Shown here: piece by piece, positions 4,897 to 19,619 of the stretch
How the letters are laid out: every line of letters begins with the position of its first letter
Numbering within the stretch: the first letter of the stretch is position 1
From: Polaribacter sp. Z022
GTDB lineage: Bacteria > Bacteroidota > Bacteroidia > Flavobacteriales > Flavobacteriaceae
NCBI RefSeq assembly: GCF_023555495.1
Contig: NZ_JALCZO010000001.1
Coordinates: 62,001-126,000 of the forward strand
Direction: 5' to 3'
DNA: 64,000 nt
Program-made: the position numbers and the translations under genes
The notes under the pieces: model-generated
Seen by the model: only the letters and a program-made list of their open reading frames with translations
Database searches by the model: none
Told to the model about the DNA's origin: nothing

Positions 4897-6159
4897 TTAT
4901 ACTAAAAATTGAAATAAATCTGGTTTGTCATTTAAGTAGTCGCCAAAAAAATTATTTTCTTTCATCCTTTGAATTAAAGGAGCTAAATCTTTAGAAGATT
5001 TTAATTCTAAACCAACCACTGCTGCACCATTTGTTCGATTATTTTTCTTGGTATATTCAAAATGTGTAATATCATCATTTGGACCCAAAATGTCAGCCAC
5101 AAACTCTTTTAATGCTCCTGCTCTCTGTGGAAACTTTACAATAAAGTAATGTTTTAAATTTGCATGTAGCAATGCACGTTCTTTAATTTCTGCAGTTCTA
5201 GTTATATCATTATTACTTCCACTAACAACACAAACTACGTTTTTCCCTTTTATATCTTCTGCCATTAAATCTAAAGCAGAAATACTTAATGCACCTGCTG
5301 GCTCAACTACAATTGCATCTTTATTATATAAATCTAATATAGTTTGACAAATTTTCCCTTCTGAAACAGTAATTACATCATCTAAATTCTTAAGACAAAT
5401 AGCAAAATTTAAATCGCCTACTTTTTTTACTGCAGCTCCATCAACAAAAGGGTCAATTTTTTCTAAAGTTGTATTTTTTTTGTTGTTTAAAGAAGTCAAC
5501 ATTGAAGGTGCTCCTTCTGGTTCTACACCTATAATTTTTGTTTCTGGAGATAAATTTTTAAATACAGTTGATAAACCTGATGACAAACCTCCTCCTCCAA
5601 TAGGCACAAATACATAGTCTATTTTATCTGATGCTTGTTCTAATATTTCTAATCCAACAGTTGCTTGACCTTCTATTACTTTTTGATCATCAAAAGGATG
5701 AATAAATGTTTTGTTTTTTGAATCGCATTCTTGTTTTGCAGCATTATAGGCATCATCAAAAGTATCTCCACCAATTACAACTTCAATAAAATTTTCGCCA
5801 AACATTTTTACTTGGTTAATTTTTTGATTAGGAGTTGGAGAAGGCATAAAAATTGTTCCTTTTATCTTTAGCAATTTACAAGATAATGCAACTCCTTGTG
5901 CATGATTACCTGCACTAGCACAAACAATTCCACATTGTTTTTCTTCATTACTTAAAGAAGACATTTTATTAAAAGCTCCTCTAATTTTATAGGAACGAAC
6001 TACTTGTAAATCTTCTCTTTTAAAGAAAATATTTGCTCCTAATTCTTTAGATAGATTAAAGTTTTTATTAAGAGGTGTTTTAGTTGCTACATCTTTTAAA
6101 TTTTCAGCAGCAGTTCTTACACTTTGTATACTTGGAAAATAAATTGGTTTTGTTTGCAT
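4897..6159 (-). CDS. ilvA: Threonine ammonia-lyase (threonine dehydratase)
   Basis: 420 aa. A PLP enzyme that converts threonine to 2-oxobutanoate, the first committed step to isoleucine. The PLP lysine is Lys58 (RSYKIRGAFNKM); the phosphate-binding glycine loop is VPIGGGGLSSGL (about residue 190). A single ACT-like regulatory domain occupies about 335-415 (FIVKFPQRAGALKEFVADIL), the usual isoleucine-sensing part. It lies at the 3' end of the ilv cluster, behind the DUF3592 gene (56 bp gap) and beyond the terminator that follows ilvC. It may therefore be expressed separately from ilvDBHC. No leader peptide is visible in front of it. Confidence 0.95.
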   Translation of the reverse strand: MQTKPIYFPSIQSVRTAAENLKDVATKTPLNKNFNLSKELGANIFFKREDLQVVRSYKIRGAFNKMSSLSNEEKQCGIVCASAGNHAQGVALSCKLLKIKGTIFMPSPTPNQKINQVKMFGENFIEVVIGGDTFDDAYNAAKQECDSKNKTFIHPFDDQKVIEGQATVGLEILEQASDKIDYVFVPIGGGGLSSGLSTVFKNLSPETKIIGVEPEGAPSMLTSLNNKKNTTLEKIDPFVDGAAVKKVGDLNFAICLKNLDDVITVSEGKICQTILDLYNKDAIVVEPAGALSISALDLMAEDIKGKNVVCVVSGSNNDITRTAEIKERALLHANLKHYFIVKFPQRAGALKEFVADILGPNDDITHFEYTKKNNRTNGAAVVGLELKSSKDLAPLIQRMKENNFFGDYLNDKPDLFQFLV

Positions 6160-6215
6160 TATAAAAATGAATTCTACAATTTTAATATTTAGTTTTATCT
6201 ATAATAAAGAAAAGA

Positions 6216-6710
6216 TCAAACACTTTTAGATTTTCTGATAAAAACAACTGTTAAGAAAATAAAAAAGATATTTATAAAAGTGAATATTATTTTCACTTTA
6301 CTAACACCTTCACTACCTTTTTCTAATACAACCTGCTTTATGTTTTTTGGGTTGTAGTATACTGAAACTTTTTTATTAACAGGATAATATTTTTGTTTTA
6401 TTAATAATTGTTGCTTATTAGTACTTTGAGTTTTAAAGGAAATTGTATTACCTATATATTCATAATCATTAACCTTATATTTATATTTTAATATTAATTT
6501 ACTCCTTACCATATTACCCAAATTTTCAGTATCTAATGAATACTCTGAAGTTTCTATTTGACTATATGTTATAACACCTTGGGTTTTATTCCAATTATTA
6601 GAATTATTAGCAACTATATCAGTAACCCAAAGCTTGTAAACAATATATATTAAAAATATTGAAACAAAGCCTGTAATGCAATACATTTGTTTAAATGTTT
6701 TTTTCGACAT
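6216..6710 (-). CDS. DUF3592-like membrane protein, function unknown
   Basis: 164 aa. One transmembrane helix near residues 10-30 (ITGFVSIFLIYIVYKLW) and one near 140-160 (IIFTFINIFFIFLTVVFI) flank an extracytoplasmic beta-rich domain. The pattern WNKTQGVITYSQIE followed by YKVNDYEYIGNTISF and KVSVYYNPKN fits DUF3592 proteins, which have no settled function. It sits between ilvC and ilvA on the same strand and is separated from ilvC by a strong terminator. Its product has no obvious link to isoleucine synthesis, so its position is probably accidental. Confidence 0.7.
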   Translation of the reverse strand: MSKKTFKQMYCITGFVSIFLIYIVYKLWVTDIVANNSNNWNKTQGVITYSQIETSEYSLDTENLGNMVRSKLILKYKYKVNDYEYIGNTISFKTQSTNKQQLLIKQKYYPVNKKVSVYYNPKNIKQVVLEKGSEGVSKVKIIFTFINIFFIFLTVVFIRKSKSV

Positions 6711-6770
6711 TCTTCTTAAAAGCTATTTTATTAATAATATTAATTCAAATCAGGATATTAATATAAAAAG

Positions 6771-6804
6771 AAAACCTGTCAGAAAGTGAATTCTGACAGG
6801 TTTT
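6771..6804 (-). terminator. Terminator after ilvC
   Basis: Perfect 14-bp inverted repeat AAAACCTGTCAGAA / TTCTGACAGGTTTT with a 6-nt loop, 24 bp downstream of the ilvC stop codon. The right arm ends in a run of Ts on the minus strand. It ends the ilvD-ilvB-ilvH-ilvC transcript and separates it from the DUF3592 gene and ilvA. Confidence 0.9.
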
Positions 6805-6828
6805 TATAAAATTTAAAAACTTACTTAA

Positions 6829-8304
6829 TTATGCAGTTTTTACTACTTTCATTGCTGTCATAGACTCTCTTAACCAATCTCCCACTTTTTCTACTGGGTG
6901 GTTTCTAATAATTTTATTAATTCTTATTAATTCTTGGTTATCAACACCGTTTTCAGAACTAAATGGCTTACCAATTACGTTTGTAGAAACTGTTTTCATA
7001 AAATCTGTTAACAAAGGCTTACAAGCGTGATCGAATAAATAACATCCATACTCAGCAGTATCAGAAATAACACGATTCATTTCTGCTAACTTCATTCTTG
7101 CAATTGTATTTGCAATTAATGGAGTTTCATGTAAAGATTCATAATATGCAGAAGCATCAATAATTCCAGATTCAGTCATTGCTTCAAAAGCTAACTCAAC
7201 ACCAGCTCTTACAAAAGCAACTAATAAAGTTCCATGATCAAAGTATTCTTGTTCTGGAATTTCTTGGTCTGTAATAACTTGTTTTTCAAAAGCAGTTTCT
7301 CCTGTAGCTGCTCTCCAAGTTAATAAGTTTTTATCATTATTAGCCCAGTCTTCCATCATTGTCTTAGAAAAATGACCAGTCATAATATCATCCATATGCT
7401 TTTGGAATAATGGACGCATAATATCTTTTAATTCTTCAGATAATCTAAATGCTTCAACTTTAGCAGGATTAGATAATCTATCCATCATGTTAGTAATACC
7501 TCCATGTTTTAAAGCTTCTGTTACAGTTTCCCAACCATATTGAATTAATTTAGCTGCATAACCAGCATCAATTCCTTCTTCAACCATTTTATCAAAAGAT
7601 AAAATTGCACCAGTTTGTAACAAACCACATAAAATAGTTTGCTCTCCCATTAAATCAGACTTTACCTCAGCAACAAAAGAAGATTCTAAAACACCTGCTC
7701 TATTACCACCAGTTGCAACTGCATATGCTTTAGCTTGTGCCCAACCTTTACCTTGAGGATCATTTTCTGGGTGAACCGCTGTTAATGTTGGTACACCAAA
7801 CCCTCTTTTATATTCTTCTCTAACCTCAGACCCTGGAGACTTAGGAGCCACCATAATTACAGTTAAATCTTCACGAACTTTCATTCCTTCTTCTACAATA
7901 TTAAAACCGTGAGAATAAGATAAAGTTGCTCCTTCTTTCATTAAAGGCATAACTGCTTTTACAACATTTGTGTGTTGTTTATCTGGAGTTAAATTAATTA
8001 CCAAATCTGCTGTTGGTAACATTTCTTCATACGTACCAACCTCAAAATTGTTTGAAGTTGCATTGATATAAGAATCTCTTTTTTGATCGATAGCAGATTG
8101 TCTTAAAGTATAAGAAATATCTAAACCAGATTCTCTCATATTTAAACCTTGGTTTAAACCTTGTGCTCCACAACCTACAATAACAATTTTCTTTCCTACT
8201 AATGCTTCTACTCCGTCTTCAAATTCTGAAGCGTCCATAAAACGACATTGTCCTAATTGCTCTAATTTCTCTCTTAATGTTAATGTGTTAAAATAATTTG
8301 ACAT
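6829..8304 (-). CDS. ilvC: Ketol-acid reductoisomerase (class II)
   Basis: 491 aa, the long class II form found in E. coli rather than the roughly 330-aa class I form. It isomerises and reduces acetolactate and acetohydroxybutyrate in valine, leucine and isoleucine synthesis, using NADPH and Mg. N-terminal Rossmann domain with [20 protein letters not shown] near residue 42. The duplicated C-terminal helical knot domain fills the rest and includes [20 protein letters not shown]. The start is 10 bp after ilvH, so it is in the ilvDBHC operon, and a terminator follows. Confidence 0.97.
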
Positions 8305-8314
8305 TTTTATTTAT

Positions 8315-8845
8315 TTAGTTGTTGTATGTTTCTAATAATGTTGAAATTTTCATTTCTTCTTTTGTAATAGCTATTCTTCCTGAACGTGTATATTGCATAA
8401 TACCAAATTCGCTTAATTGTTCGTGTAAACCAACAATTTCTTCTTTTTTTCCTGATTTTTCAAGAACAAAAAACTCTTTATTTACAGTAACAATTCTTGC
8501 ATTACTTTCTTTAATTATATTTTGAATCTGACGTTCTTCAAATAACAATTCTGATTTAATTTTAAACAAACCAGAAATTTGATAAATTGTTTCATCATCA
8601 TTATGGTAGTAAGCCTTAATAACCTCTACTTGCTTTTCTAATTGACCAATAATTTTCTTAATATTTACCTCAGTCATTTTTACAACAATTGTAAATTTAG
8701 AAACCCCTACAATTTCAGATGGAGATGTATTTAAACTCTCTATATTTATGTGCCTTCTTTGGAAAATTGCTGAAATCCTATTCAACAACCCAATATTGTT
8801 TTCAGTATATATTGATACTGTAAAAAGTTGTTTTTCTGTACTCAT
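8315..8845 (-). CDS. ilvH: Acetolactate synthase small (regulatory) subunit
   Basis: 176 aa. The regulatory subunit activates IlvB and gives valine feedback inhibition. The N-terminal ACT domain (about 5-80) reads FTVSIYTENNIGLLNRISAI then RRHINIESLNTSPSE; a second ACT-like domain is at about 90-165. Its start follows the ilvB stop codon by 1 bp, so translation is probably coupled. The symbol ilvN would serve equally. Confidence 0.95.
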   Translation of the reverse strand: MSTEKQLFTVSIYTENNIGLLNRISAIFQRRHINIESLNTSPSEIVGVSKFTIVVKMTEVNIKKIIGQLEKQVEVIKAYYHNDDETIYQISGLFKIKSELLFEERQIQNIIKESNARIVTVNKEFFVLEKSGKKEEIVGLHEQLSEFGIMQYTRSGRIAITKEEMKISTLLETYNN

Positions 8846-8846
8846 C

Positions 8847-10580
8847 TTATTCTAATCTTATATCTGAAACACTTGCTCCTGAAGGAATCATTGGAAATAC
8901 GTTATCTTCTTTTTCTACACAAACCTCTAAGAAATAAGCCTCTTTACTTTCCATCATTTCTTTAACAGCCTCTGCTAATTCTTCTCTTTTTGTTACTTTT
9001 TTTGCTTTAATATAGTAACCTTCTGCAATAGCAACAAAATTAGGATTTGTCATTTCTGTAGAAGCATACCTTTTATCAAAAAACAATTGTTGCCACTGAC
9101 GAACCATCCCTAAGAAATCATTATTTAAAACCACCACTTTTACAGCTGCTCTTTGCTGAAAAATAGTACCTAGTTCTTGAATTGTCATTTGGTAACCTCC
9201 ATCACCAGATATAGAAACTACTTCTCTTTCTGGGGCAGCCATTTTTGCTCCAATAGCCGCTGGTAAACCAAAGCCCATTGTTCCTAATCCTCCAGAAGTA
9301 ATATTACTCTTAGATTTATTAAACTCTGCATATCTACAAGCAATCATTTGATGTTGTCCTACATCTGATACAATTGCAGCTTCTCCTTTACTTTGAATGT
9401 TAATTTCTTTTAAAACCTCTGCCATTGTTATACCCTCTTTAGTAGGATATAAATCATTTTTTATAACTTTTTCGTACTCAATATTATATAAGTCAGTAAA
9501 TTTCTGACGCCATTCTGTATGAGTATTTTTGTTTATCATTGGTAATAAAGCCTCTAAACTAGCTTTTGCATCACCTAAAACAGCTACATCTGTTTTTACA
9601 TTTTTATCAACTTCTGCAGGATCAATCTCAAAGTGAATAACTTTAGCTTGTTTTGCATATGTATCTAAACTACCAGTTACACGATCATCAAAACGCATCC
9701 CTATTGCAATTAAGGTATCACATTCATTTGTTAAAATGTTTGGAGCATAATTACCATGCATACCAACCATACCAACATTTAATGGATGAGAAGTAGGAAT
9801 TGCTGAAGCACCTAAAATTGTCCAAGCAGCAGGAATTCCTGCTTTTTCAATAACTGCTTTTAACTGCTCTTCTGCCTCACTTAAAATTACACCCTGACCC
9901 CAAACTACTAAAGGTTTTTTTGCTTCATTAATTAATTTAGCAGCAGCTTCAACAGAAGCAATTTCTGTTTTTGGAACCGGATTATAACTTCTAACTCCTG
10001 TACATTTTTCATAAGAAAAATCGAACTCTTCAAACTGAGCATCTTTTGTAATATCTACCAAAACAGGACCTGGCCTACCACTTTTTGCTATATAAAAAGC
10101 TTTTGCAATAGCTTCAGGTATCTGAGAAGCTTTTGTTACTTGACAGTTCCATTTAGTAACTGGTGTAGAGATACCTACAATATCTGTTTCTTGAAATGCA
10201 TCTGAACCTAATAAATGAGAAGGAACCTGACCTGTTATACACACCATTGGTGTAGAATCTATTTGAGCATCTGCAATACCTGTAATTAAATTTGTTGCTC
10301 CAGGACCAGAAGTGGCTATTGCCACACCAACTTTTCCAGAAATTCTTGCATAACCTTGAGCAGAATGTGTTGCTCCTTGTTCATGACGTGTTAATACATG
10401 GTGTATTTTACCTTGATATTTATATAACTCATCATAAACTGGCATAATTGCTCCTCCAGGATATCCATAAATGATATCTGCTCCTTCTTCAATTAAACAT
10501 TTTACAATTGCCTCACTACCAGAAATACGTTCTGTAGTTTTTGTAGTTGAGTTACTATTTTTTATGGTTTGTGCTTCCAT
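8847..10580 (-). CDS. ilvB: Acetolactate synthase large (catalytic) subunit
   Basis: 577 aa. A thiamine-diphosphate enzyme that forms acetolactate or acetohydroxybutyrate. The catalytic Glu lies in TRHEQGATHSAQGYAR (near residue 65). The thiamine-diphosphate motif runs from GDGGYQM to VVLNND in the C-terminal third. The three domains of the family are all present at normal length. It starts 12 bp downstream of ilvD and leads into ilvH, in the order ilvD-ilvB-ilvH-ilvC. Confidence 0.97.
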   Translation of the reverse strand: MEAQTIKNSNSTTKTTERISGSEAIVKCLIEEGADIIYGYPGGAIMPVYDELYKYQGKIHHVLTRHEQGATHSAQGYARISGKVGVAIATSGPGATNLITGIADAQIDSTPMVCITGQVPSHLLGSDAFQETDIVGISTPVTKWNCQVTKASQIPEAIAKAFYIAKSGRPGPVLVDITKDAQFEEFDFSYEKCTGVRSYNPVPKTEIASVEAAAKLINEAKKPLVVWGQGVILSEAEEQLKAVIEKAGIPAAWTILGASAIPTSHPLNVGMVGMHGNYAPNILTNECDTLIAIGMRFDDRVTGSLDTYAKQAKVIHFEIDPAEVDKNVKTDVAVLGDAKASLEALLPMINKNTHTEWRQKFTDLYNIEYEKVIKNDLYPTKEGITMAEVLKEINIQSKGEAAIVSDVGQHQMIACRYAEFNKSKSNITSGGLGTMGFGLPAAIGAKMAAPEREVVSISGDGGYQMTIQELGTIFQQRAAVKVVVLNNDFLGMVRQWQQLFFDKRYASTEMTNPNFVAIAEGYYIKAKKVTKREELAEAVKEMMESKEAYFLEVCVEKEDNVFPMIPSGASVSDIRLE

Positions 10581-10592
10581 ATTTATATTTTA

Positions 10593-12269
10593 TTAAGCAT
10601 CAGTTACACATCCTTTAGATGCTGATGCTACTGATTTTGCGTATTTATATAAAATTCCTTTATTATGTTTTAAAGCTGGTGCAGTCCAATTAGCTTTTCT
10701 TGCAGCTAATTCTTCTTCAGAAATTAAAACATTTATAGAATTGTCTTCTGCACTAATTCTAATTTTATCTCCAGTTTCAAGAATACCAATGGTTCCTCCT
10801 GATTGTGCTTCTGGAGTAATATGTCCGACCACAAAACCATGTGTACCTCCAGAGAAACGACCATCTGTAATTAAAGCTACAGATTTTCCTAAACCTGCTC
10901 CCATAATTAGTGAAGTTGGTTTTAACATTTCTGGCATACCTGGTCCTCCTTTAGGCCCAACATACCTAATGACGACTACATCTCCTTTTTCTACTTCTCC
11001 ATTAGAAATACCTGTATTTGCTGCTTGTTCACCATCATAAACAACTGCTTTTCCTTCAAACAATAAACCTTCATTTCCAGATATTTTTGCTACAGCACCT
11101 TCTTCTGCAAGGTTACCATATAAAATTTGCAAGTTACCCGAAGATTTTAATGCTTTATCTGCAGGAAAGATTACATCTTGTTCTTCAAATTCCATAGCTT
11201 CAACATCTGCTAAATTTTCAGCCAATGTTTTACCTGTAACAGTCATACAATCTCCATGTAAATATCCATTTTCTAATAAATATTTCATAATTGCTGGTGT
11301 ACCACCAACTCCATGAACATCTTCCATTAAGTATTTACCAGATGGTTTTAAATCTGCAATTAAAGGTGTTCTATCTGAAACTCTTTGAAAATCTTCTAAA
11401 GTAAACTCAATATCTGCAGCATGTGCAATTGCTAAAAAGTGCAACACAGCATTTGTAGAACCACCCAATGCATTAACTAGTGCAATAGCGTTTTCTAAAG
11501 ATTTTTTAGAAATAATATCTAAAGGTTTTAAATCCAATTCTAATAAATTTTTAATTGCCAAAGCAGTTCTTTCTGCTTCAGACAATTTATTTGGATTTTC
11601 TGCTGGAATAGATGAATTATAAGGCAATGCAAAACCCATACACTCAATAGCAGATGCCATTGTGTTTGCAGTATACATTCCTCCACAAGCTCCTGCTCCT
11701 GGAATTGCTCTTTTTATTATTTCTCTATATTCGTCTTCTTCTATTTCTCCTGCTACTTTTTGCCCTAAAGCTTCAAAAGCAGAAACAATATTTAATTTTC
11801 TTCCTTTGTAATTTCCAGAAGCAATTGTTCCTCCATACATCATTATAGAAGGACGATTTAAACGTAACATTGCAATTACAGCTCCTGGCATGTTTTTATC
11901 ACAACCTACTACAGAAACTAATGCATCATAACTTTGAGCGTTCATTACAGTTTCTATAGAATCTGCAATTATATCTCTAGATGCTAAAGAATAATTCATA
12001 CCAGAAGTTCCCATAGAAATACCATCTGAAACTCCAATTGTATTAAAACCTAAACCGACTAAACCTGCAATTTTGCTTTCTACCTTGACCTCTGCAGCCA
12101 AATTATTTAAATGCATATTACATGGGTTACCATCATAACCAGTACTCGCAATTCCTACTTGCGCTTTCTGCATGTCTTCATCAGTTAAACCTACTGCATA
12201 CAACATTGCTTGTGATGCTGGTTGAGATTCATCTTGTGTTAATCTGCTACTGTGTTTGTTAAGTTTCAT
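10593..12269 (-). CDS. ilvD: Dihydroxy-acid dehydratase
   Basis: 558 aa. An iron-sulfur enzyme that dehydrates dihydroxy acids to the 2-oxo acids of valine and isoleucine. Cluster cysteines are visible in CNMHL (about 51), [11 protein letters not shown] (about 123) and [12 protein letters not shown] (about 195). First structural gene of ilvDBHC. About 300 nt of leader upstream holds a leader peptide (12503-12565) and an intrinsic terminator (12439-12467), so expression is probably controlled by attenuation in response to Ile/Val supply. Confidence 0.97.
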
Positions 12270-12438
12270 TTAATGTTCTGTTCAATTTGTTGACTAAATT
12301 ACTATGTTTCTCTATTTTTATTAAATAATACTCAATACTATTCTTTAAATTCAGGTGTTAAAAAAACAACATAAACATCTTATTATCAATTATTTAATTG
12401 TTTTTATTTATGACATTCAAGTATTAAAATAAATCCAT

Positions 12439-12467
12439 AAAAAAACCTTCCATTTTACAAGAAGGTT
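12439..12467 (-). terminator. Attenuator terminator of the ilvDBHC leader
   Basis: On the minus strand: AACCTTC, 10-nt loop, GAAGGTT running into a T tract (seven Ts counting the end of the stem). It lies 36 nt after the stop codon of the leader peptide and about 170 nt before ilvD. The 5' arm region ACCTTCTT (12466-12459) can instead pair with AAGGAAGT (12501-12494; seven of eight positions, counting one G-T pair). This segment lies just after the leader stop codon, giving a plausible antiterminator. Confidence 0.75.
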
Positions 12468-12502
12468 CTATTTAAAATTATATTATAAATATCACTTCCT
12501 TA

Positions 12503-12565
12503 TCAAGACGTAATTATTACGTTGACTATGATAATAGAAATTATATTTACAAATTGTTTTTTCAT
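12503..12565 (-). CDS. ilv operon leader peptide (20 aa, Ile/Val-rich)
   Basis: A short frame, MKKQFVNIISIIIVNVIITS then TGA. Seven of 20 residues are Ile and three are Val. It lies about 60 nt downstream of a predicted promoter and directly upstream of a small hairpin (ACGTAAT / ATTACGT, overlapping its last codons) and the terminator at 12439-12467. This is the arrangement of ribosome-mediated attenuation known for enterobacterial ilvL. The analogy is from established knowledge of ilvGMEDA; the call here is inference from composition and position. I know of no named Bacteroidetes homologue. Confidence 0.8.
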   Translation of the reverse strand: MKKQFVNIISIIIVNVIITS

Positions 12566-12628
12566 TGTTCAAATATTGTGAATTTTTATTTAGAAAAGCA
12601 ACTATTTTTATTTTTTTATGAAAATCTA

Positions 12629-12765
12629 CAAACAAAGTTAGCTCAGATTAACCCCTCTTTTATATTTCTTTTGAGTCATAGAATTCCCTAGGTTTGAAAT
12701 GTTTTTTTGAGTTTTTTAAAGCAATAAAAGCGAGTAATGAAAGCTGGAAATAGCTTCTAAAAAAA
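12629..12765 (-). repeat. Dispersed intergenic stem-loop element, copy A
   Basis: A non-coding element directly downstream of the leuB stop codon. Positions 12727-12769 resemble 29038-29080: AAAGCGAGTAATGAAAGCTGG against AAAGCGAGTAGTGAGAGCAGG, then a shared AGCTTCTAAAAAA tract ending in the stop codon of a minus-strand gene. The left ends are also similar (CAAACAAAGTTAGCTC against CAAACAAGTTTAGCCC). This copy is diverged inside. Together with the ilv leader it fills the 496-bp gap between leuB and ilvD. Confidence 0.6.
12633..12640 (-). promoter_or_regulatory. -7 box of the ilv leader promoter
   Basis: TAACTTTG on the minus strand fits TAnnTTTG. No clear TTG lies 19-21 bp upstream. The predicted start near 12627 gives a 62-nt untranslated stretch before the leader peptide. 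Confidence 0.55.
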
Positions 12766-13887
12766 TTAAATAATAGTACTTTGTCCCATATAAATATTCT
12801 TGAAATTCATACTACTATCTTCTTGATTTTGAATATAATCTGCAATAAAATCTCCTACTTTAGAAGTAGATGCAGAGTACTGCCCAACTCCTTTTAAATC
12901 TTTTGTTGTTAACCCTAGATCTAAAGATTTTTCTACTGCTCTATGTATTGCATCTGCTTCATCTAACAAACCTAAATGCTCTAACATCATTGCTGCAGAT
13001 AAAATTGAAGCCAAAGGATTTGCTATGTCTTTACCTTTTGCTTGATGATAAGAACCATGAATTGGCTCAAACATTGCATTTTTTTCTCCTATTGAGCTAG
13101 AAGCTAACACTCCTATTGAACCTCCAATAGCACAAGCTACATCTGACATTACATCTCCTAAAAGGTTTTCTGTTAAGATAACATCAAACTGTTTTGGATT
13201 TAAAACAATTTGCATTGCTGCATTATCTATTAACAAAACTTCTAATTCTACATCTTTATATTGCTTTGCAATTTCAACAACGGTTTTTCTCCATAAACGA
13301 GAAGTTTCTAAAACGTTTGCTTTATCTACAAGGGTAACTTTTTTCTTTCGTATTTGAGCAGCCTCAAAAGCAAGATGTGTAACTCTGGTTATTTCATCTA
13401 CAGAATAAGCACAAGCATCATAGGCTTGTTTACCATCTTTACTTATTTCTTTTCTTCCAAAATAAATACCGCCAGTTAACTCTCTAAAAATTGCGATATC
13501 TGTACCAGAAATAATTTCTTTTTTAAGTGGAGAATTTTTTAATAGTTTAGGATATGCTTTAATTGGCCTAACATTACAAAATAAATCTAACTCTTTTCTT
13601 AGATTTAAAAGACCTTGTTCTGGTCTTATTCTTAATGTTGGGTCATTGTCATATTTTGCATCTCCAATTGCGCCAAATAAAATTGCATCTGCATTTCTAC
13701 ATATTTCAATAGTTTCTTTTGGTAAAGGATCTCCAGTTGCATCAATTGCACAAGCTCCCATTTGAGCTTCTTTATACAAAAAAATATGATCATATACTTC
13801 AGCTACAGCTTCTAAAGCTTTTTTAGCTTGAGTAGTTACTTCTGGCCCAATACCATCTCCAGGAATTACTGCAATTGTATATTTCAT
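12766..13887 (-). CDS. leuB: 3-isopropylmalate dehydrogenase
   Basis: 373 aa. NAD-dependent oxidative decarboxylation of 3-isopropylmalate in leucine synthesis. Characteristic segments: VIPGDGIGPEVT at the N-terminus, REL-TGGIYFG substrate loop near residue 140, and the C-terminal NAD-binding stretch EPIHGSYHQAKGKDIANPLA. The C-terminus (STSKVGDFIADYIQ and a short tail) extends slightly past the usual end. It has its own candidate promoter at 13974-13981, just after leuA, and an inverted repeat in its leader. Confidence 0.96.
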   Translation of the reverse strand: MKYTIAVIPGDGIGPEVTTQAKKALEAVAEVYDHIFLYKEAQMGACAIDATGDPLPKETIEICRNADAILFGAIGDAKYDNDPTLRIRPEQGLLNLRKELDLFCNVRPIKAYPKLLKNSPLKKEIISGTDIAIFRELTGGIYFGRKEISKDGKQAYDACAYSVDEITRVTHLAFEAAQIRKKKVTLVDKANVLETSRLWRKTVVEIAKQYKDVELEVLLIDNAAMQIVLNPKQFDVILTENLLGDVMSDVACAIGGSIGVLASSSIGEKNAMFEPIHGSYHQAKGKDIANPLASILSAAMMLEHLGLLDEADAIHRAVEKSLDLGLTTKDLKGVGQYSASTSKVGDFIADYIQNQEDSSMNFKNIYMGQSTII

Positions 13888-13994: not shown

Positions 13995-15170
13995 TTATGC
14001 TGTAGCAATTTTTGATGTTTTACTGACTTCTTTCATAATATTATGAATATCCTCGTCTTTAACTTCTTTTTGCTTATCTGCTGTTTCTAAAAAAGCAGTA
14101 TAAGCAACATCTAATTGTACTTTTGTAAGCTCATAACCTATCTTTTTTGCTCTATAAGCTAAGGCTGCTCTACCACTTCTTGCAGTTAAAACAATTGCAC
14201 TTTCTGTAACACCAACATCTTCAGGATCCATAATTTCATATGTTTCTCTGTTTTTAATAACTCCATCTTGATGAATACCAGAACTGTGTGCAAATGCATT
14301 TGCACCTACAATTGCTTTATTTGGTTGTACTGGCATTCCCATGCTTTCACGAACCATTATACTTGTATCATACAATAGTTTTGTATTGATGCTTGTTTCT
14401 AAATTTAAATACGGATGTTGTTTTAAAACCATAACAACCTCTTCTAAAGCTGTATTTCCTGCTCTTTCTCCAATACCATTAATTGTACACTCTATTTGAC
14501 GTGCTCCATTAATAACTCCTGAAATTGAGTTTGCAGTTGCCATTCCTAAATCGTTATGACAGTGACAAGAAAGAATTACATTATCTATCCCTTTTACGTT
14601 TTCACGTAAATATTTCATTTTTGCTCCATATTCTTCTGGCAAACAGTAACCTGTTGTATCAGGAATATTTAACACTGTAGCACCAGCTTTAATAACTTCT
14701 TCACAAACTCTTGCTAAGTATTCATTATCTGTTCTTCCTGCATCTTCTGCATAAAACTCTACATCTTCTACAAAAGACTTTGCATAAGAAACTGCTTTAA
14801 CTGCTCTTTCTATAACTGCTTCTCTAGAAGAATTGAATTTAAATTGAATATGAGAATCACTAGTACCAATACCTGTATGAATTCTAGGATGCTTTGCGTA
14901 TTTTAAAGCTTCTGCAGCTACTTTTATATCGTTTTCTACAGCTCTAGTTAAACCACAAACTGTAGCATTTTTAACAATTTTTGAGATTTGAGTTACCGAA
15001 TTAAAATCTCCAGGGCTAGATACAGGAAAACCTGCTTCTATTACATTTACACCCAATAAGTCTAATCTTTCTGCAATTACTAATTTTTGTTTAGTATCTA
15101 ACTTACATCCAGGAACCTGTTCTCCATCTCTCAATGTTGTGTCAAAAATTTGTACCTTGTTATCTTGCAT
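13995..15170 (-). CDS. leuA: 2-isopropylmalate synthase, short form without regulatory domain
   Basis: 391 aa. Condenses acetyl-CoA with 2-oxoisovalerate, the entry step of leucine synthesis. The HMGL-like TIM barrel carries [13 protein letters not shown] near the N-terminus and the metal-binding SCHCHNDLG near residue 200; the linker with HSSGIHQDG follows. The protein ends at about residue 391, whereas the E. coli enzyme has 523 aa. The C-terminal LeuA dimer domain that binds leucine is therefore missing. Homocitrate synthase is a related possibility, but leuB next door favours LeuA. leuC and leuD are not in this window. Confidence 0.9.
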
Positions 15171-16974: not shown

Positions 16975-17038
16975 CCTTGTGAATTTATCTAATACACATA
17001 TTAAATCTACAAAAACTACAAACGTGGTTTGTATTTCT

Positions 17039-17080
17039 ATGCGCACAATTATTCGCACATCTACAACAATTACCCTTTAG
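17039..17080 (+). CDS. thr operon leader peptide (13 aa, Thr/Ile-rich)
   Basis: Frame MRTIIRTSTTITL then TAG: five Thr and three Ile in 13 residues. It resembles the core of the enterobacterial thr leader (RISTTITTTI). It lies about 60 nt after the predicted transcription start and 100 nt before thrA. A hairpin ACCC / GGGT overlaps its stop codon (17072-17084), and a second one, TTGTTTC / GAAACAA, lies at 17117-17140. Neither is followed by a T run, so the termination step of a classical attenuator is not visible. The same frame is open back to a GTG at 16979, but that is at the predicted start of the RNA. Confidence 0.7.
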   Translation: MRTIIRTSTTITL

Positions 17081-17180: not shown

Positions 17181-19619
17181 ATGAAAGTATTAAAATTTGG
17201 CGGTTCATCTGTCGCAAACACAGAAAACATAAAAAAAGTCTTAGCAATAGTTAAGGAAGCTTCTAAAAACCAAAAAGTTGCAGTAGTAGTTTCTGCTTTT
17301 GGCAAAACAACCAATAATCTTTTAGCTGCTGCAGAAGAAGCTTTAGAAGATATAACTACTTCAAAAGATATTTTAGCAAAAATTAAAGAATTACATTTTA
17401 CTGTAATTGATGATTTAGTTATTAAAAATAAAAAAGAAGTTTCTGAAGAAATAACTTATTTGTTTGAAAGATTGCAAGCTATTTATGAAGGTATTTTCTT
17501 GTTACAAGAATTATCTGACAAAACTTTAGCAAAAGTTTCTAGTTTTGGAGAAAGACTTTCTTCTTTTGTAATTGCAAATGCTGCAAAAGAATTAATGGAC
17601 GCTACTCACAAAGAAAGCAGAGATTTAATTATTACAAATGATAACTTTTTAAACGGACAAGTAAACTTTGATGTTACTAACAAAAATATTGTTTCTTTTT
17701 TCGAAGAAAACAAACATCAAGTTACACTTTTAGGTGGGTTTATTTCTTCTAATATTGCAGGAGAAACTACAACTTTAGGTAGAGGTGGTTCTGATTTTTC
17801 TGCATCTATTTATGCTGCTGCAGTAGATGCTGATGAATTATTGATTTATACAGACGTAAGTGGAATGTTTACAGCAAACCCTAGAGTTGTTAAGCAAGCT
17901 TTTCCTATCTCTGAAATTTCTTATGAAGAAGCAATGGAATTATCACACTTTGGTGCAAAAGTTTTATACCCACCAACAATTCAACCTTCATTAAGAAAAA
18001 ACATTCCTATTAGAATTAAAAATACTTTTGAACCAGAAAACTTTGGAACTTTAATTTCTAATGACCCAAATAACGGAAATGAAGTTAAAGGAATTTCTCA
18101 TATAGAAGACATTAGTTTAATAACATTAGAAGGTGGTGGAATGATTGGAATTCCTGGGTTTTCTAAACGTTTGTTCGAAACGCTTTCTGTTGCAAAAATA
18201 AATGTTGTGTTTATTACACAAGCATCATCAGAACATTCAATTTGTGTGGGTGTTTTTGAAAATGACGCTGCAAAAGCAAAAGAGCTTTTAGATGATGTAT
18301 TTAGCATAGAAATAGACAAGAAAAAAATAAAACCAGTAATTGTAGAAAACGATTTGGCAATTATTGCTGTGGTTGGAGAAAGCATGAAAAACTACCAAGG
18401 TTTAAGCGGACAAATGTTTGCTGCTTTAGGTAGAAACAATGTTAATGTAAGAGCAATTGCACAAGGTTCATCAGAAAAAAACATATCTGCAGTAATTAAC
18501 AAATATGATGCTGACAAAGCTTTAAATACTTTGCACGAACAGTTTTTTGAAGAAAAAACAAAGCAATTAAACTTATTTGTTACTGGTGTTGGTAATGTTG
18601 GAGAACGCTTTTTAGCACAGATTAATCAACAAAAAGAATTTTTAAAAGAAAATCTAAAACTTAATATTAAAGTAGTTGGTATTGCTAATTCTAGAAAAAT
18701 GCATTTTGATACCAATGGAATTGATTTAGAAAACTGGAAAGAAAGTTTAGAAAACGGAGAGCCTGCAACTTTAGAGAGTTTCCATATTAAAGTAAAAGAA
18801 AGCAACTTAATTAATAGTGTTTTTGTTGATAATACAGCAAATCAAGCAGTTTCTGAAGTATATGAATCTTATTTAAGAGAAAGTATTTCTGTGGTTACTT
18901 GTAATAAAATTGCTTGTGCATCTAATTTTGATAACTATAAAACTTTAAAAGAAGTTTCTAGAAAATACAATGCATCTTTCTTATTTGAAACTAATGTTGG
19001 TGCAGGTTTACCAATTATAGATACACTTAAAAACCTAATCAGTTCTGGTGATAGAGTTCATAAAATTCAAGCTGTATTATCTGGAAGTTTAAACTTTGTA
19101 TTCAATAATTTTGATGAAAATTCAACTTTTCATGATGTTGTTGCTGCTGCTCAAAAAGAAGGATATACAGAACCAGATCCAAAAATTGATTTAAGTGGTG
19201 TTGATGTAGCAAGAAAAATTTTAATTCTTGCAAGAGAAAGTGGTTACAAAATGGAATTGGAAGATATTGCAAACAATTCTTTTTTAACTGAAGAAAGCTT
19301 AAAAACTGACAATAATGATGACTTTTATGCTTCTTTAACAAAGAACGAAGCTCATTTTCAACAAATTTTTAAAGAGGCAAATGACAAAAATTGTCGTTTA
19401 AAATATGTAGCAGAATTTATTGATGGGAAAGCAAATGTAGGTTTACAACACATCCCTTCTGATCATCCTTTTTACAATTTAGAAGGAAGTGATAATATTG
19501 TTTTATTCTTTACAGACAGGTATCCAGAAAACCCATTATTAATAAAAGGTGCTGGTGCTGGTGCAGATGTAACTGCTTCTGGTATTTTTGCAGATGTAAT
19601 TAGAATTGGAAATCAATAG
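17181..19619 (+). CDS. thrA: Bifunctional aspartate kinase / homoserine dehydrogenase
   Basis: 812 aa, the E. coli ThrA architecture. Aspartate kinase domain at about 1-290 with KFGGSSVAN at the N-terminus and GRGGSDFSAS near 205; two ACT domains at about 310-455, the threonine-sensing part; homoserine dehydrogenase at about 460-810 with LFVTGVGNVGERFL (NADP binding) and the catalytic stretch with LSGSLNFVFN. It performs the first and third steps from aspartate to threonine. First gene of thrABC. A Thr/Ile-rich leader peptide lies upstream. Confidence 0.97.
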   Translation: MKVLKFGGSSVANTENIKKVLAIVKEASKNQKVAVVVSAFGKTTNNLLAAAEEALEDITTSKDILAKIKELHFTVIDDLVIKNKKEVSEEITYLFERLQAIYEGIFLLQELSDKTLAKVSSFGERLSSFVIANAAKELMDATHKESRDLIITNDNFLNGQVNFDVTNKNIVSFFEENKHQVTLLGGFISSNIAGETTTLGRGGSDFSASIYAAAVDADELLIYTDVSGMFTANPRVVKQAFPISEISYEEAMELSHFGAKVLYPPTIQPSLRKNIPIRIKNTFEPENFGTLISNDPNNGNEVKGISHIEDISLITLEGGGMIGIPGFSKRLFETLSVAKINVVFITQASSEHSICVGVFENDAAKAKELLDDVFSIEIDKKKIKPVIVENDLAIIAVVGESMKNYQGLSGQMFAALGRNNVNVRAIAQGSSEKNISAVINKYDADKALNTLHEQFFEEKTKQLNLFVTGVGNVGERFLAQINQQKEFLKENLKLNIKVVGIANSRKMHFDTNGIDLENWKESLENGEPATLESFHIKVKESNLINSVFVDNTANQAVSEVYESYLRESISVVTCNKIACASNFDNYKTLKEVSRKYNASFLFETNVGAGLPIIDTLKNLISSGDRVHKIQAVLSGSLNFVFNNFDENSTFHDVVAAAQKEGYTEPDPKIDLSGVDVARKILILARESGYKMELEDIANNSFLTEESLKTDNNDDFYASLTKNEAHFQQIFKEANDKNCRLKYVAEFIDGKANVGLQHIPSDHPFYNLEGSDNIVLFFTDRYPENPLLIKGAGAGADVTASGIFADVIRIGNQ

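Follow-up and report, generated by a model that had tools for sequence, protein, structure and literature searches.

In the enterobacterial ilvGMEDA and ilvB attenuators, a short leader carries branched-chain codons, its RNA has alternative 1:2, 2:3 and 3:4 pairings, and an intrinsic terminator stands before the ilv genes. The window, i.e., the whole 64,000-nt stretch of Polaribacter sp. Z022 analyzed here, appears to contain an element of this kind between leuB and ilvD. It resembles the enterobacterial leaders in its branched-chain codons, its predicted 1:2, 2:3 and 3:4 alternatives and its intrinsic terminator, but its leader has no Leu codons, the genes under control would be ilvD-B-H-C, there is no Rfam match, and its start codon is predicted to lie at the 5' end of the RNA (a 5' UTR of 0-9 nt in 47 of the 71 first leaders). 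Based on folds, co-change across lineages and conservation in relatives, we put at about 0.87 the probability that the region 12439-12640 subjects ilvDBHC to ribosome-mediated transcription attenuation of the classical kind. The ilv leader would belong to a known attenuator type, and its interest lies in its occurrence in a poorly charted phylum, and in its regularity. The control of amino-acid synthesis in Bacteroidota is itself poorly charted, and Rfam 15 gave no family for these leaders.

The closest account within the family is that of F. psychrophilum, where structured 5' regions before amino-acid operons are reported and "strong clues" of leader-peptide attenuation are mentioned in a single sentence, with elements ahead of hisG and pheA named as occurring in other genera (PMC9723704). 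However, "ilv" is unnamed in the main text of that paper, and an antiterminator, co-change and tandem units are missing from the sections covered. Among the literature matches listed, only this one speaks of leader-peptide attenuation in Flavobacteriaceae; the initial annotation of this DNA had called the mechanism little described in Bacteroidetes, which fits the literature searches, although given these clues it is not undescribed. In Bacteroides, sORFs reminiscent of leader peptides have been noted (PMC7366714). Actinobacterial ilvB leaders are also similar, as they have Ile/Val/Leu leader ORFs with terminators, and the ilvL of Streptomyces lividans is leaderless (PMC1262725, PMC8079986). 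Nevertheless, this likeness is by description only, the codon runs there overlap the terminator hairpins, and the S. coelicolor mechanism is not classical: changes in the ilvB leader codons were reported to be without effect, which counts as a caution against a classical reading (PMC1262725). Finally, the leader RNA of Sinorhizobium meliloti trpL begins at the AUG of the leader ORF (PMC7298713), as is predicted here, but that system is a Trp leader of an alphaproteobacterium with a reported start site, whereas ours is a prediction only.

Organization of the ilv locus and its leader frame

On the minus strand, the gene order is leuA-leuB, a gap of 496 nt, ilvD-ilvB-ilvH-ilvC, an ORF of 164 aa, and ilvA. 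The leader frame, the post-stop element and the predicted terminator are all within the gap.

13995-15170, minus strand: leuA, upstream of ilvD and on the same strand
12766-13887, minus strand: leuB, upstream of ilvD and on the same strand
12503..12565, minus strand: leader ORF MKKQFVNIISIIIVNVIITS plus TGA, from the sequence and kept within the genus; predicted transcription start at or next to 12565 (leaderless)
10593..12269, minus strand: ilvD, dihydroxy-acid dehydratase (ncbifam TIGR00110), first gene of the putatively controlled run
8847-10580, minus strand: ilvB, within the gene run 4897..10580
8315-8845, minus strand: ilvH, assigned by position, with no ncbifam match at 1e-30
6829-8304, minus strand: ilvC
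6216-6710, minus strand: ORF of 164 aa between ilvC and ilvA
4897-6159, minus strand: ilvA

The initial annotation had described a 20-codon frame with ten Ile/Val codons, an element just past its stop codon, and ilvD 170 nt downstream, and all three were found. The frame lies at 12565..12503 and has 7 Ile and 3 Val among its 20 codons; the element AAGGAAGT is at 12501..12494, beginning two bases past the last base of the stop codon; and ilvD starts at 12269, which is 170 nt beyond the end of the terminator. When the leuB-ilvD gap was shuffled with its dinucleotides preserved, an equally Ile/Val-rich ORF of 12-30 codons appeared in 7 of 5000 shuffles, with conservation not counted in; the Ile/Val frame in this gap therefore exceeds chance. 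The indels within the leader ORF were all of 3 or 6 nt in an alignment of 24 sequences. The pN/pS value of the ORF was 0.61, a weak contrast with the 0.70 of frame +1, and so codon-substitution bias alone is no proof that the leader is translated. That control would be by Ile and Val only, as had been proposed, agrees with the window leader, which has no Leu codon, but not with the full set of 76 leaders (see below), where Leu accounts for about one tenth of the branched-chain codons when the four commonest codons of each residue are counted. Inspection by eye of the window sequence preceding leuA revealed no such leader.

Predicted terminator and alternative pairings

The following RNA elements are predicted, all on the minus strand:

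12483..12552, minus strand: predicted 1:2 hairpin, in which the post-stop element pairs with codons 5-14 of the leader (fold of -18.9 kcal/mol, z -4.1; RNAalifold consensus)
12522..12508, minus strand: small apical hairpin of 1:2 (fold)
12494..12503, minus strand: segment 2, predicted 5' strand of the antiterminator, AUAAGGAAGU, overlapping the last base of the stop codon (co-change, folds)
12457..12466, minus strand: segment 3, predicted 3' strand of the antiterminator, ACCUUCUUGU, also in the terminator 5' arm (co-change, folds)
12439..12469, minus strand: predicted 3:4 intrinsic terminator of 10 bp with a loop of 8 nt, stem 12469..12442 and T tract to 12439 (our own terminator scan, folds, RNAalifold)

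A stem of 10 bp at 12469..12442 was obtained by our scan and by folding, and ACCTTCTT, which had been read earlier as the 5' arm of a terminator with a T tract, lies inside its 5' arm at 12466..12459. The terminator begins 36 nt past the first base of the stop codon. A generic terminator scan did not report it, probably because the stem runs into the T tract. The pairing proposed between the post-stop element and the terminator arm was also recovered: AAGGAAGT and ACCTTCTT pair at seven of eight positions on reading the sequence, with one G-U and one A-C mismatch, and the fold lengthens this duplex to 9 bp. Moreover, AAGGAAGT pairs with leader codons, forming a 1:2 stem that was absent from the initial annotation. 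The hairpin ACGTAAT/ATTACGT described there is present, but it has 6 bp and a loop of 3 nt and is just the tip of the long hairpin 12552..12483.

The leader was then folded with and without the segment that a ribosome would cover. With the ribosome at codon 9, 11, 13 or 16 and the RNA extended through segment 3, the minimum-energy fold has the 2:3 pairing, a predicted antiterminator of 7-9 bp plus an extension of 6 bp, both at 37 and at 10 degrees. With the ribosome at the stop codon, or with none, 2:3 is missing from the minimum-energy fold. In all cases computed with segment 4 already out, including those with a stalled ribosome, the minimum-energy fold contains the terminator, and antitermination must therefore be kinetic; textbook attenuators likewise switch kinetically. 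An intrinsic terminator, an antiterminator exclusive with it, and a 1:2 stem protecting segment 2 when there is no ribosome are thus all predicted in this region.

In the proposed mechanism, transcription would start at or next to the leader AUG, and a ribosome would trail the RNA polymerase along the leader. With ample Ile- and Val-tRNA, the ribosome would reach the stop codon and cover segment 2, so that 3 pairs with 4 and transcription ends. When Ile or Val is scarce, it would stall on the Ile/Val codons, covering segment 1, and the freed segment 2 would pair with 3 before segment 4 emerges, allowing the polymerase to continue into ilvD. In the absence of a ribosome, 1:2 would lock up segment 2, and the terminator would form.

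An RNAalifold consensus of 24 sequences, L002 and 23 from the genus, contained 1:2 and 3:4, with double changes at only 3 of its 28 pairs. When compared with synonymous resamples, the real leaders fold better (mean of -17.5 versus -11.8 kcal/mol), with p<=0.05 in 44 of the 76 leaders. The window leader gave p=0.07 for its fold and p=0.08 for its apical hairpin, values that are weak alone; for the apical hairpin, p<=0.05 was reached in 31/76 leaders. The same synonymous-codon test restricted to the ORF against the post-stop element alone was weak, with p<=0.05 in just 16/76.

Co-change of the post-stop element and the terminator arm

The predicted attenuator finds its strongest evidence in co-change: the element next to the leader stop codon tracks the 5' arm of the terminator. 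When the antiterminator duplexes of the 76 units were computed with their own partners, they summed to -770.8 kcal/mol, against a mean of -588.3 (sd 16.1) with swapped partners, and none of 20,000 permutations matched the own pairings. Since relatedness inflates this permutation result, a stricter test was made, in which 4-7 units were drawn 200 times such that no G/C-bearing 5-mer was common to their 5' arms. The own sums then averaged -64.5, against -43.6 (sd 6.7) when swapped, and in 193 of the 200 draws no more than 5% of the swaps were as good (median 0.4%, worst 15.4%). This replaced a test on "13 divergent types" (-133.2 versus -95.4, sd 7.9, 0/20,000), discarded because a single CCTTCC arm had entered it in at least four registers, each taken for a distinct type; the 5-mer test is weaker, but still favorable.

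The commonest combination, found in most loci, is a GGAAG-like element with a CTTCC arm, and the others include TGATACAG with CTGTATCA, where the stop codon is inside the element, AAGGGAT with ATCCCTTT, GAATGG with CCATTC, and TTGAGA with TCTCAA. Counted from the first base of the stop codon, the median start of the paired element is +1 (5-95% range, -11 to +6), where it would be covered by a ribosome that has reached the stop codon. The window is not among the strongest cases: its antiterminator duplex (-6.3) ranks 59th of 76, and 58 of 75 foreign arms pair with its element more strongly.

Recurrence in relatives

For this analysis, we collected 139 ilvD loci, which are the best-scoring part of each search (best 30 of 87 matched genomes, best 80 of at least 595 confirmed, and best 30 of 55), and the counts therefore lean to close relatives. 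The nearest named IlvD proteins among the matches listed are from Polaribacter, with 95% and 92% identity. The loci were scanned by script for a short Ile/Val-rich frame followed by a terminator within 140 nt, a scan that misses leaders more than 650 nt upstream of ilvD. The raw result was 82 pairs in 77 loci; six loci (L003, L016, L021, L035, L067 and L126) were dropped because the scripted frame did not resemble a leader, leaving 76 pairs in 71 of the 139 loci. Among the best-scoring loci of each set, the family-wide one (a single genome for each genus) contributed 22 of 30, the named records 25 of 80, and the additional genomes of the window's genus 24 of 29. The script found no leader-terminator pair in the other 68 loci; at least three of these are script failures, as L003, L035 and L128 have the pair on reading by eye.

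Within the genus of the window, 26 of the 30 loci examined have a leader and a terminator (25 by script and L128 by eye), and one named Polaribacter record (L031) was seen by eye to have the shortened frame MNKQVLNIISTVKTR. Among named records, the pair was found in Lutibacter (L036-L038), Algibacter (L034), Winogradskyella (L055), Aquimarina (L048 and L060), Gaetbulibacter (L065) and Flavobacterium (L063, L071, L084, L087, L091 and L097), and also in the more distant Saprospiraceae (L052, L069, L089 and L105) and Sediminibacterium (L099). Typical frames are MKNQFLNTISIIVIVIISQR (L034) and MQISIIITSVFVVNVIHTSAAGMV (L091). The ends of the leader peptides vary widely (ITS, SQG, ITNW), while the Ile/Val codons stay. 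Relatives lacking either the Ile/Val frame or the terminator would have spoken against the initial annotation, but many relatives keep both.

Predicted promoter and transcription start

The elements considered here are:

12633-12755, minus strand: degenerate dispersed intergenic repeat related to Flavo-1 (RF01705), from genome copy counts and Rfam scan
12599..12601, minus strand: predicted -33 element TTG, 21 nt from the -7 box, from the sequence
12570..12577, minus strand: predicted -7 element AATATTTG, with five of the six defined bases of TAnnTTTG, from the sequence and relatives

What is conserved before the leader is TTG(G), a spacer of about 20 nt, and AATATTTG; in the window this reads TTG-N21-AATATTTG, ending 4 nt ahead of the ATG. 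Of the 71 first leaders, 47 have a TTTG that ends 3-13 nt ahead of the start codon, as compared with 23 of 228 control windows, and similar TTG/TTAG motifs at about that spacing were seen by eye in many of these 47 loci. The remaining first leaders have no such box or have it at another place, which in some Flavobacterium is about 20 nt away. A sigma-70 scan of the window gave matches at chance level.

The -7 box of F. psychrophilum is reported to span -12 to -5 of the transcription start (PMC9723704), and this position, together with the 4-nt distance of TTTG from the ATG in the window, places the predicted start at the A of the ATG. The leader mRNA is thus predicted to be leaderless, starting at or next to 12565, and the 47 leaders would imply a 5' UTR of 0-9 nt. 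Such a start would be unusual, since the leaderless share of F. psychrophilum mRNAs is reported as 5.5% (PMC9723704), and about 3.7% of 5' UTRs in Bacteroides are reported to be under 10 nt.

The promoter box proposed in the initial annotation did not hold. The sequence TAACTTTG is present at 12640..12633, but it is the altered end of the dispersed Flavo-1-like repeat and not a conserved promoter. This repeat end, CAATCTGGGCTAAACTTGTTTG, has 27 copies in the genome at no more than 3 mismatches (the diverged copy of the window excluded), against 0 for a reversed-pattern control, and the other end, AGCTATTTCCAGCTTTC, has 12 copies at no more than 1 mismatch, the window copy included. When three copies were scanned with Flavo-1 (RF01705), one scored 65.7 bits and two had no match at the gathering score; the window copy reached only 15.1 bits (E 2.6). 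The leader is kept without the repeat DNA in L128, L133 and L134.

Leader losses and the ilvD-proximal box

12294-12301, minus strand: TAATTTAG, 32 nt ahead of ilvD, conserved in most leader-bearing relatives

This box might be a second, cryptic or alternative promoter past the terminator. We compared 33 loci (L001, L002, L031, L032 and L111-L139), and the leader was absent in five, of which L032 equals L137 in the stretch compared, so that four are distinct. A perfect TAnnTTTG was present 30-32 nt ahead of ilvD in three of these four, and none in L126. Among the 28 leader-bearing loci, only one (L133) had a perfect box at that place, and four others had it elsewhere within 125 nt. The pattern fits a swap of an attenuated distal promoter against a plain proximal promoter.

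The box also bears on an alternative in which the hairpin would be the end-of-unit terminator of leuAB, the frame incidental, and the ilvD promoter downstream. The position of leuB, which lies on the strand of the leader and ends about 200 nt ahead of it, the conservation of TAATTTAG, and the perfect -7 box in three of four distinct leader-less loci would all suit it. It is nevertheless improbable: the terminator 5' arm co-changes with the element beside the leader stop codon, the Ile/Val frame is kept in 26/30 genus loci, and the perfect ilvD-proximal box occurs where the leader is lost and is rare where it is kept (1/28).

Other amino-acid leaders

Similar frames precede other amino-acid operons. 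Ahead of trpE, a WWW frame was present in 25 of 25 genus loci (MKENTNNTWWWNSLI in the genome of the window), and ahead of hisG, a His-rich frame in 24 of 26 (MNFIQLHHRHFYNCSQAI); the Trp and His leaders of this genome are on other contigs (L178 and L140), and those of relatives are among L141-L190. A hairpin and a T run follow the Trp frame in 25 trp loci, and were also seen in the his locus of the window's genome and in the 19 his loci whose His frame was picked by script, in all cases by eye. In 23 of 25 trp loci, a post-stop GTGAG or GTGGG stands opposite CTCAY or CTCGC in the terminator hairpin. In the His leader, the C-terminal residues CxQA are conserved, possibly owing to RNA pairing. 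A further frame is found in the window itself:

16979-17080, plus strand: Thr-rich, GTG-started frame of about 33 codons ending in RTIIRTSTTITL, ahead of thrA (17181-19619), identified by eye

This frame starts 4 nt past TATTTTTG and is predicted to be leaderless, and similar Thr-rich frames were found by script ahead of thrA in 9 of 15 relatives. A terminator scan of the window thrA leader found none, which suggests that not all such leaders need one. Together with the non-classical ilvB leaders of Streptomyces (PMC1262725), this would favor a leader peptide that acts on translation, or via peptide-specific stalling or Rho, instead of transcription attenuation dependent on charged tRNA. For the ilv leader, such a mode of action is most unlikely, given an intrinsic terminator that starts 36 nt past the first stop-codon base and peptide ends that differ widely while the Ile/Val codons persist; in addition, the terminator ends 170 nt ahead of ilvD and is therefore unlikely to mask its initiation. 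If the frame were incidental and the leader a metabolite-binding riboswitch or bound by a protein, the long stable hairpin ahead of the terminator would fit, but this is hardly credible, since frames in the same position carry Trp (trpE) or His (hisG) and Rfam 15, searched with all families including the amino-acid leaders, gave no match at the gathering score at the window leader, at the leaders of the ilvD loci of seven relatives, or at the own his and trp loci.

Beyond the ilv attenuator, we incline towards a broader proposal, that Bacteroidota including Flavobacteriaceae have a widespread and uncharted class of attenuators (ilv, thr, trp, his). Their frames would lie at or near the RNA 5' end, where ribosomes independent of Shine-Dalgarno sequences would load at once behind the polymerase; the antiterminator would be built around the stop codon, drifting freely if the terminator arm follows; and some lineages would stack two Ile/Val units. 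The ilv, trp, his and probably thr leaders suggest the tight transcription-translation coupling needed for attenuation, in a phylum mostly without Shine-Dalgarno sequences, and the predicted leaderless start is a possible way for the ribosome to load in time. The leader would offer a simple reporter for testing this coupling.

Tandem units

The window ilv locus has a single unit, but two complete Ile/Val leader-terminator units in series were found by script in 5 of the 71 loci (L013, L038, L060, L065 and L139), and by eye in a sixth (L051). The two leader ORF/attenuator units in series resemble the arrangement of Salmonella mgtCBR (PMC3641672), where, however, the units are reported to sense different signals, whereas both leaders are Ile/Val-rich in all six ilv loci. 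In the five scripted tandems, the second start codon is close behind the first terminator, and no TTTG box was seen between the units. The second unit of L013, L038, L065 and L139 has an antiterminator similar to TGATACAG/CTGTATCA. Separately, a SAM-II riboswitch match of 44.6 bits (cut-off of 44) was observed near the ilvD locus of another relative (L011, 3656-3745).
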